64,000 nt of DNA, from contig NZ_JACHXK010000001.1 in the NCBI RefSeq assembly GCF_014192105.1, positions 806,001 through 870,000 of the forward strand, in the 5' to 3' direction. Position numbers and translations under genes: made by a program. Source of the DNA: Paenibacillus phyllosphaerae. Lineage in GTDB: Bacteria; Bacillota; Bacilli; Paenibacillales; Paenibacillaceae. Numbering within the stretch: the first letter of the stretch is position 1; the number at the start of each line of letters is the position of its first letter. Positions 4,600-57,385 of the stretch are shown here, piece by piece. Below the pieces are notes generated by a model. It was given only the letters and a program-made list of their open reading frames with translations, searched no databases and was not told where the DNA came from.

Positions 4600-5045
4600 G
4601 GGAGAACAAGGGCTGCGCCCTTATGACCCAGCTTTGTTAGCCTCGCCCCTTCCCCCTCCATTGGGGGAACCAAAGGGCCATCGCCCTCTGGACACCGATA
4701 ATAAGCGTGACACGTGACGCGGCCGTCGTTGATCTGTCCTTTCGGGCTTGGCCCGCTTTTGTTCTAGGAGCAATTCGCACGTCCCATGGACATGCGGATT
4801 GCTCCTAGAACAAAGCTCTGGTGCGAGCTTCGTTCGCGGCTTTGATGCCTTGGGGTGGGGGCTTGGTGGGATAGTCGGATTTGCCTGGCAGCGAGCTGAC
4901 TCTCGCTTGACGTCCACTGCGTGGACACGCTGACTTTTAACTTCTTTGTTGTGGGGACCTGCTTGGCTACGGATTGGCGGCACAGCGAGCGGACCCTCGC
5001 TTGACGTCCACTGCGTGGACACGCTGACTTCTTTAACTGCATATA
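4600..5045. repeat. Dispersed noncoding repeat, copy 1, with a 26-bp variable hairpin
   Basis: This stretch without a convincing gene matches 52560-52920 in the same order: a C-rich block (CCTTCCCCCTCC), a block with CGTGACACG-GACGCGGCCGTC and GTCCTTTCG, a hairpin, a GATGCCTTG block, and CTCGCTTGACGTCCACT-GTGGACACGCT, which occurs twice here (about 4900 and 4998). The hairpin at 4759-4813 pairs 26 bases with two wobble positions around a CAT loop. Open frames across it have no ribosome site and no recognisable domain. Confidence 0.75.
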
Positions 5046-5064: not shown

Positions 5065-5097
5065 CAAAATGCCCTTCCGCCGAGGAAGGGCATTTTG
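5065..5097 (-). terminator. Terminator of the vanW-like operon
   Basis: CAAAATGCCCTTCC and GGAAGGGCATTTTG form a 14-bp stem with a five-base loop right after the stop codon; the U-rich stretch is part of the stem. Confidence 0.7.
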
Positions 5098-5102
5098 CTT
5101 GC

Positions 5103-6047
5103 CTAATGCGCTTGCGCGGGTTTCTTTTTCACTGCCGCTGGGACTTCTTCCGGCAGTTCTTCGTTCATGCCCGGGACGTTGCGCGGTTTGTATTCCATCT
5201 CCTCCGAGGAGAATAGACCGACCGACATCGTGCCGTGGCGCGCGTAAGCCCGGATGAGGACCGGCTGGTTGTACTGGTTGCGGAACGTGAAGTCCGGGCC
5301 GTCCCAGCTGACCGTGGCGTCGCGGCCGGAACGGACATACGGCACGCTGCGGCTGTGGGAATACCGCTCGATGATATGCAGGCCGGCACGATCTGTCGCG
5401 TTGAACAGCGTCGAGGACACTTGGCAGATCCCGCCGCCGATGCCTTCAGACAGTTCGCCCCGGACGATAACCGGCGCCTCCTTGTAGCCGCCGGCTTTCG
5501 TGCGTCTGCCCACCACTTTGTTGAAGGAGAACCGCTCGCCGGGGAACACGACCGTGTTATTGATCGCGCTGGCCGCCAAGGCGATATTGTGGGCGCGGTT
5601 CGTATTCCTTGAATTGTAATAGGTTACGTAATAAGCAATCGGTCTCTGCCGAATGCTAGCCAGCAATTCGCGGTCTACCCTGGCCAGAACCGGCTTCATC
5701 GGCAGGTCGATCGTCATTGGCCCCGTGCCATGAAAGTAGCCGTAGAACTGCTCCAAGAATTTCAGTTGATCCAGCTGTCTGCCCGGCTTCTCCGGCACGA
5801 TGCCGCCGCTGGGACCGATGAACGCGTTCTTGGCCGGCTCCAGCGTCTGCTTGCGTATGCGGGCCGCCAACTGATCGAATTTATCGAGATCGACCATCGT
5901 AATTCCCGGCAAGGCATAATCCATCCGGTTCACCGATAACGTGCTTCCTTCCCCCAGCGTGACCGTCAGATGGTCCGAAGACTGTTCAGCCTGCAGACCA
6001 GACGGCTGCGTCACGGCCAGCAGAACCGCCAGCCATATTGCTTTCAT
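5103..6047 (-). CDS. VanW family exported protein
   Basis: About 314 residues with an N-terminal signal sequence (MKAIWLAVLLAVTQPSGLQA). The C-terminal half is a VanW domain: GERFSFNKVVG, GGGICQVSSTLFNA and a YSHSRSVPYV segment are its conserved blocks. VanW proteins occur near vancomycin resistance genes and widely in Bacillota as cell-wall-associated proteins; the biochemical function is not known. A longer frame starts at GTG 6062, but the sequence GAGGTGGAG just before the ATG at 6047 is an obvious ribosome site, so I take the ATG. It lies 30 bases after another exported protein gene, probably in one operon. Confidence 0.85.
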   Translation of the reverse strand: MKAIWLAVLLAVTQPSGLQAEQSSDHLTVTLGEGSTLSVNRMDYALPGITMVDLDKFDQLAARIRKQTLEPAKNAFIGPSGGIVPEKPGRQLDQLKFLEQFYGYFHGTGPMTIDLPMKPVLARVDRELLASIRQRPIAYYVTYYNSRNTNRAHNIALAASAINNTVVFPGERFSFNKVVGRRTKAGGYKEAPVIVRGELSEGIGGGICQVSSTLFNATDRAGLHIIERYSHSRSVPYVRSGRDATVSWDGPDFTFRNQYNQPVLIRAYARHGTMSVGLFSSEEMEYKPRNVPGMNEELPEEVPAAVKKKPAQAH

Positions 6048-6077
6048 TGCGCTCCACCTCACATTCCACGATTGCCG

Positions 6078-32299: not shown

Positions 32300-32419
32300 T
32301 GTTATCGCCTCTTCCCCGTTCCTATCGATTTATCCGACCGGCCTGCCTCTATTCTAACATGACTCGATTCTGCTTGAACTTTAGCTTTCCATTGCCGTAT
32401 AATAGCTACAACTTTATTG

Positions 32420-32490
32420 CGTATTGTATAACCTCAATAATATGGTTTGAGGGTCTCTACCAGGAGCCGTAAAATCCTGATTACAAAAAT
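32420..32490 (+). ncRNA. Adenine (purine-class) riboswitch aptamer
   Basis: The conserved purine core is visible: TATAACCTC ... AATATGG, TCTCTACC, GCCGTAAA and GATTAC. P2 pairs CCTCAA with TTGAGG, P3 pairs CAGGA with TCCTG, and P1 pairs TTGTA with TACAA. The ligand-reading base in GATTA is U rather than the C of guanine riboswitches (GACTA), so the ligand should be adenine. It lies directly upstream of adenine deaminase. Confidence 0.92.
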
Positions 32491-32528
32491 GTGTATCGTA
32501 CCTACATGTTTTTGTGATCGGGATTTTT
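32473..32528 (+). terminator. Riboswitch-controlled terminator
   Basis: AATCCTGATTACAAAAATGTG pairs imperfectly with TACATGTTTTTGTGATCGGGATT and is followed by seven Ts. The 5' arm includes the 3' strands of P3 and P1, so adenine binding should prevent it and switch expression on, as in pbuE. Confidence 0.88.
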
Positions 32529-52559: not shown

Positions 52560-52920
52560 CCTCCCCCTTCCCCCTCCAACGGAGGAGAACCAGAGGGCCA
52601 CGGCCCAAGCTTATGCTTCCGAAGTGAGTTTTCCGTCCGGAAAACTCTGAGGACACCCGTAAATGGCGTGACACGGGACGCGGCCGTCTTCGATTTGTCC
52701 TTTCGAGCGAGGCCCGCGTTGTCCCTTATTGGGATGGGTCGCATTCAGGTATGCTCCATTCCAGTTAGCGGGACAAAGCTTTTGTTTGAGCTCCGTTCGT
52801 TACGTTGATGCCTTGCGGAGCAGACCTGGTACGTTTGCGCCGGGTACGCTTCTCCGTGCCTACCCTCGCTTGACGTCCACTACCGTGGACACGCTTTACT
52901 TCTTTGTCAGGCTCTCTCTT
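52560..52920. repeat. Dispersed noncoding repeat, copy 2, with a different long hairpin
   Basis: Shares with 4600-5045, in the same order, the CCTTCCCCCTCC block, CGTGACACGGGACGCGGCC, GTCCTTTCGAGC, GATGCCTTG and CTCGCTTGACGTCCACT. Between GGCCCGC and CAAAGC lies a 58-bp imperfect hairpin (52719-52776; TTGTCCC ... GGGACAA at the base) of unrelated sequence to the hairpin in copy 1. An insert at 52609 (AAGCTTATGCTTCCGAAG) matches, inverted, block A of the fadA-fadE repeats. Confidence 0.72.
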
Positions 52921-57097: not shown

Positions 57098-57385
57098 ACG
57101 CAAAAAAGCCCTTCATCTCCAATACTAGAGACGAAAGACATCGATATCTTACGCGGTACCACTCTACTTCATATCCGTTCGGGGCGGATATGCGCTTAGC
57201 GGAGCAGGGAATTCCTGCATCCTCCTACTGTAACGGTTAGGCTCCGGCTCCGCTTACTGCAAGTTCAGCGAGCTACTCCAAGGTGAGTTTCCGATTCTAC
57301 AAGACGGCTGTTTCGCACCAACCAACAGCTCTCTGAGCGTCCATACAATCGTACTGGTCCTTATCGACATATTTTAATATTCTCA
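57098..57385 (-). ncRNA. T-box leader of leuA (Leu, CUC specifier)
   Basis: On the reverse strand: a stem I with AGAGAGCTG and GGTGCGAAACAG, a specifier loop GAAACTCACC whose CTC codon reads leucine, the T-box AGAGTGGTACCGCG (about 57151-57164), and a terminator pairing CTTTCGTCTC with GAGATGAAGG followed by TTTTTTG (57105-57142). Uncharged tRNA-Leu should pair with the T-box and allow transcription of leuA. Confidence 0.93.

Follow-up and report, generated by a model that had tools for sequence, protein, structure and literature searches.

A long repeat present twice in the window

The window analysed here, a 64,000-nt stretch of the Paenibacillus phyllosphaerae genome, holds two non-coding regions that each carry a long hairpin at the same point. 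The initial annotation read the two stems as unrelated and proposed either an element whose structure matters or a hotspot for palindrome insertion, which raises the question of what kind of element this is and how its hairpin comes to vary. That the regions share conserved blocks in the same order was borne out by alignment, which gave three pieces (67.5% over 271 positions, 91% over 44 and 81% over 48; E values from 1e-16 to 7e-8). Neither region codes for a credible protein, as had been noted: open reading frames overlapping the copies had no Pfam match, and indels among copies break the frame. The same observations speak against a decayed common gene as the source of the flank similarity.

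Copy 1 (4607..5034; plus strand, as are all parts of both copies) comprises a left hairpin sub-module, a module A of two adjacent GC-rich hairpins with a sharp left edge at CCTC (4641..4694), the most conserved core block (ACGCGGCCGTC-TCGAT-TGTCCTTTCG, 4717..4744), the variable hairpin (4758..4814) and two tail units. The tail hairpins lie at 4902..4931 (CTCGCTTGACGTCCACTGCGTGGACACGCT) and 4996..5025, the second representing a tandem copy of the ~95-nt tail unit. Adjoining the tail, and outside the repeat, is a terminator-like hairpin on the minus strand (5066..5097) that belongs to a convergent VanW-domain gene (5103-6062, minus strand). Copy 2 (52560..52905) has an extra hairpin cassette inside module A (AAGCTTATGCTTCCGAAGTGAGTTTTCC-loop-GGAAAACTC, 52607..52648), followed by the core block (52678..52705), the variable hairpin (52718..52777) and a tail hairpin (52864..52895). 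The long hairpin was found between GGCCCGC and CAAAGC in each copy, as annotated; it is 57 nt long with Watson-Crick pairing in 25/27 aligned pairs in copy 1, and 60 nt long with 20/25 Watson-Crick and two G-T pairs in copy 2. Elsewhere the window has ordinary Rfam matches to a T-box leader (57124-57376, minus strand) and a purine riboswitch (32404-32503, plus strand).

Copy number and sites of the family

BLASTN with copy 1 recovered tens of further copies in the host genome (7.9 Mb, draft). When the genome was searched with a pattern of the most conserved block, allowing up to three mismatches, 84 core matches were obtained, distributed across the contigs, against 0 for a control in which the same pattern was reversed. 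The repeat is thus a dispersed, non-coding sequence of ~300 nt present in ~90 copies. Nearly all copies are at best 70-86% alike, so the family is old or fast-evolving, and no recent burst of copying is visible. Two tandem neighbours (C13:97360 and C13:97687) are 84% identical and end in a different tail-like hairpin (TTGTCGACnnnGTCGACAA).

Copies are mainly intergenic, often past the terminator of a neighbouring gene, and in convergent gene pairs they typically start within ~110 nt of a gene's stop; the gene calls behind these context counts come from a simple ORF picker, which limits their precision. Among 101 genomes searched, the core pattern occurs only in the host and in Paenibacillus methanolicus, and it is absent from 21/22 congeners. 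For comparison we scored 34 element copies in the sister genome, P. methanolicus BL24, and found that only 2/34 sites are collinear with a host copy on both flanks, with a few more collinear on one flank. We conclude that element sites differ mostly between the two genomes and have turned over.

Modular organisation

Across the family the module order is fixed: module A is followed by the core (ACGCGGCCGTC-TTCGAT-TGTCCTTTCG) and then by the variable hairpin, which TTTGTCC/GGACAAA closes. Next come a conserved block around GAGCTTCGTTCG and between one and five tail units, each with a CGTCCAC-loop-GTGGACACG hairpin. A small AGGGCTnCGCCCT hairpin often lies at the left of module A, which starts abruptly at CCTC. 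The right end is ACnTTTT. Element boundaries are sharp, the left flanks are not conserved and both ends are weakly T-rich. No terminal inverted repeat was found, the ends CCTCCCC and ACnTTTT not being complementary, and for the element copies we neither recognised a target duplication nor obtained a clean empty site.

The numbers of tail units and cassettes vary among copies, the second hairpin cassette within module A being present in 14/68 tail-bearing copies, copy 2 of the window included. We observed that the AAGCTTATGCTTCCGAAGTGAGTTTTCC cassette is a repeat in its own right in many congeners (G015, G011, G014, G022 and others), where it also forms tandem arrays (for example with period 79 in G015); it lies mostly on the C-rich strand, at 19:3 in the host and 21:3 in P. 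methanolicus. Module A, too, is found as an independent repeat across many Paenibacillaceae; in several species of one other genus, for example, it lies upstream of an apparent era gene. In genus g13 (L172-L181), module A together with a tail-like hairpin (CGTTCCC-GGGAACACGCTT) stands at an apparently conserved position upstream of the era-like gene, and this hairpin has a different stem in the same frame as the element's tail.

The variable hairpin diverges between copies and stays paired

Most host hairpins have 20-27 aligned pairs and fit a single loose, diverged palindrome of ancestral type (..GCGGAATGG..TTGCATG..CATGCAA..CCATTCCGC..). Across the family the hairpins are therefore not unrelated, as had been supposed for the stems of the two window copies, although a few do look wholly different from the shared palindrome. 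Across 68 hairpins the arms form a mean of 13.3 Watson-Crick pairs within a copy, compared with 8.3 when arms are swapped between copies and 6.4 after shuffling, and ungapped identity between copies is ~30% in the arms against 92% in the adjoining core. The arms thus covary, and the suggestion that the structure of the element matters is supported.

We also searched for the hairpin sequences elsewhere in 1.6 Mb of the host genome; apart from two additional, split copies of the element, only short matches at chance level turned up. On this ground we reject insertion of the hairpins from elsewhere in the genome. A hotspot that takes up unrelated palindromes could explain the few hairpins of wholly different look, and in some copies module A does contain a genuine insertion of a second hairpin repeat; however, at the position for which a hotspot had been proposed most hairpins share one ancestral palindrome, and outside element copies their sequences gave only short, chance-level matches in the 1.6 Mb searched. 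We regard this explanation as very improbable, and the earlier proposal to this effect is for the most part not upheld.

It had been reasoned that copies with no hairpin at this position would count against a structural role. The P. methanolicus copies come part of the way, as they have only a 6-8 bp hairpin there (e.g. CTTGTCCTTCGGACAGG or CTAGTCCTTCGGACTGG); the hairpin is short but not absent, and a few host copies have one equally short. Since P. methanolicus has this short form, the simplest view is that the long variable hairpin arose in one lineage by enlargement of a short stem.

Of 1,099 aligned pairs, 926 are Watson-Crick, 45 G-T, 27 A-C and 101 others. In one sister pair of copies the stem shows 10 double Watson-Crick changes and zero single changes; ungapped counts of this kind can be trusted only where the two copies compared have stems of similar length. 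Together with the small number of G-T pairs (4% of the aligned pairs), this fits templated copying of one arm from the other, and the scarcity of non-Watson-Crick pairs fits such copying at least as well as selection at the RNA level. An alignment-wide mutual-information scan was noisy, since the hairpins align poorly. We set aside an RNAalifold strand test, in which the fold itself favours G-T pairs, and pattern counts of tail and H2 pairs in the host, which were contaminated by chance matches.

A structured RNA family transcribed from the strand given here, with a peripheral stem that varies in sequence and not in pairing, would also account for arms of this kind. Conserved unpaired blocks lie between the variable stems and could mean a functional RNA; in the long hairpins G-T pairs are in slight excess over A-C on the given strand (45 to 27, p 0.044), and many of the short P. 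methanolicus hairpins keep a conserved T-G pair. However, the G-T share is small, neither window copy has a promoter-like site near its left boundary, where flanks are not conserved in any case, and the typical start of copies just past a gene's stop in convergent pairs is not what this explanation would lead one to expect. Rfam 15 gave no match to the element at gathering score, and a known RNA was rejected on that basis. We consider a structured RNA unlikely.

Orientation follows replication

Among host copies with enough context, 83/85 lie on the C-rich strand (p 2e-22), as do 33/34 copies in P. methanolicus (p 4e-9), replication direction being read from GC skew in draft genomes. For module A alone, scored in three complete genomes from another genus, the C-rich strand holds 20/22 cases, several of them at orthologous sites and hence representing fewer independent cases. 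Because the leading strand of Firmicutes is the G-rich one, the element is read against the direction of the fork, and its complement matches the lagging-strand template in sense. Where neighbouring genes are convergent or divergent, 32/33 copies still follow the skew, as do both copies (2/2) whose two neighbouring genes share the element's strand. We conclude from the convergent and divergent contexts that orientation is set by replication, and reject transcription as its cause.

Only two host copies run against the rule (C13:176500 and C7:356302), the C7 copy being without hairpin and tail. The module A exceptions (L196:9571, minus strand; L202:9846, plus strand) share an unusual sequence type (GGGCTGGCCGCCC), and each has as its neighbour a copy that obeys the rule and points the other way.

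This polarity bears on three of the alternatives. In 98% of copies a transcript of the given strand would be made against the direction of replication, a further point against a structured RNA. The same 98%, and the presence of the element across the genome's contigs, would suit a polar chromosomal signal kept by selection to mark the direction of the fork or of segregation, as KOPS or SRS motifs do. Such a signal would not be expected to be 300 nt long and modular with varying tail and cassette numbers, to be missing from nearly all congeners at the level of the core pattern, or to occupy sites that are mostly not shared with P. methanolicus, and we think this reading distinctly improbable. 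A MITE-like relic of a conventional DDE transposon, its orientation bias arising from beta-clamp-linked target choice, would agree with the sharp ends, and replication-linked orientation is found in many IS families (PMC5371812). The element nevertheless lacks the terminal inverted repeats of a MITE, its copies showed no target duplication that we recognised, and near-complete polarity combined with serial hairpins fits a single-strand mechanism better; a relic of this kind is quite unlikely.

An IS110-family element targets the core

At least five host contigs end in the same inserted sequence, at the same core point of five different copies (C3:1, C18:1, C34:1, C20 end and C13 end). Matching right halves occur at three contig starts (C11:1, corresponding to L102:1-1150, C13:1 and C30:1), preceded by a common sequence; at C11 the right half also follows the C-terminal portion of a transposase of the IS110/IS116/IS902 family (Transposase_20, E 4e-26). 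An IS110-family element therefore targets one position of the repeat's core, in the block found at 4717..4744 in copy 1, in at least five other copies. These insertions explain some of the assembly breaks, and they offer a concrete target for bridge-RNA-type recognition.

A proposed mode of spread

Taking these observations together, we infer that the repeat is probably a composite, REP/BIME-like modular palindromic DNA element that has spread through insertion coupled to the replication fork, and whose stems remain paired owing to structural selection, template switching or both. The substrate of this process would be single-stranded DNA at the fork: the G-rich complement, having the sense of the lagging-strand template, would fold into a row of hairpins. 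These would be cut or joined by a putative enzyme, apparently outside the detectable Y1 class. The long variable hairpin would be an enlarged TTGTCC-GGACAA hairpin, of which P. methanolicus still has the short form. Its arms may diverge between copies and yet keep their complementarity because structural selection acts on mobile copies, because template switching at replication copies one arm onto the other, or for both reasons.

A search for Y1 transposases (PF01797) gave matches in control genomes but none in the host, in six congeners or in P. methanolicus, and a Y1 transposase was therefore rejected as the mobiliser in these genomes; nor was a reverse transcriptase (RVT_1) found in P. methanolicus. 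The mobilising enzyme may therefore have been lost or be of a non-Y1 type. A derivative of a group IIC intron was also rejected, as there was no Rfam intron match and RVT_1 is absent from the element-bearing P. methanolicus. A link to group II introns by way of the copies near terminators was dismissed because the distance between tail and terminator is not constant.

The usual account of REP-like repeats invokes Y1/RAYT transposases; ~90 copies with near-complete polarity and no such enzyme point to another route of spread at the fork, or to selection for polarity. It is possible, if rather doubtful, that non-Y1, fork-coupled single-strand mobilisation spreads multi-hairpin elements among Paenibacillaceae, while template switching at the fork renews one internal hairpin and gives each copy its own paired stem. 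A hairpin that is hypervariable yet always paired, beside a 92%-identical core, provides natural material for telling structural selection apart from template-switch mutation.

Comparison with known systems

Like BOX and bcr repeats of other Firmicutes, the element is modular and intergenic with predicted structure. With REP, BIME and REPIN sequences it shares a dispersed, palindromic, intergenic nature, placement mostly between co-directional or convergent genes, a copy number in the tens, within the tens to thousands typical of REPs, and a mosaic organisation. It also resembles them as an IS110-family target, insertion of this family into REPs being known (PMC1525189). It differs in being ~300 nt long with six or more hairpins, where REPs have 20-40 nt, and in having tail units head-to-tail in tandem, where REPs form inverted pairs. 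REPs fall into GTAG and CGTC super-families (PMC3733652); the 6-bp stem, loop and flanks of the element's tail hairpin are unlike the published CGTC families, and the element has neither form of REP. A Y1 gene flanked by the repeat, as expected of a REP system, was missing from the host, P. methanolicus and six congeners, where PF01797 is absent.

Insertion orientation follows replication in the IS200/IS605 family, a precedent for fork coupling (PMC5371812), and the element resembles this family in its hairpins, which are subterminal in IS200/IS605, and in following the lagging-strand template. It is unlike it in lacking a Y1-type TnpA in the host genome, in its variable internal hairpin and in having no identified cleavage site or guide tetranucleotide. 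Template switching can make and maintain hairpins (PMC8794818), and the long near-perfect stems and multi-base complementary changes seen here resemble those of template-switch hairpins and quasipalindromes, except that here the process would recur at one fixed position in tens of copies of one element. Failing the tests for the known REP, IS200/IS605, MITE and Rfam families, the element is a variant of the REP/BIME kind.
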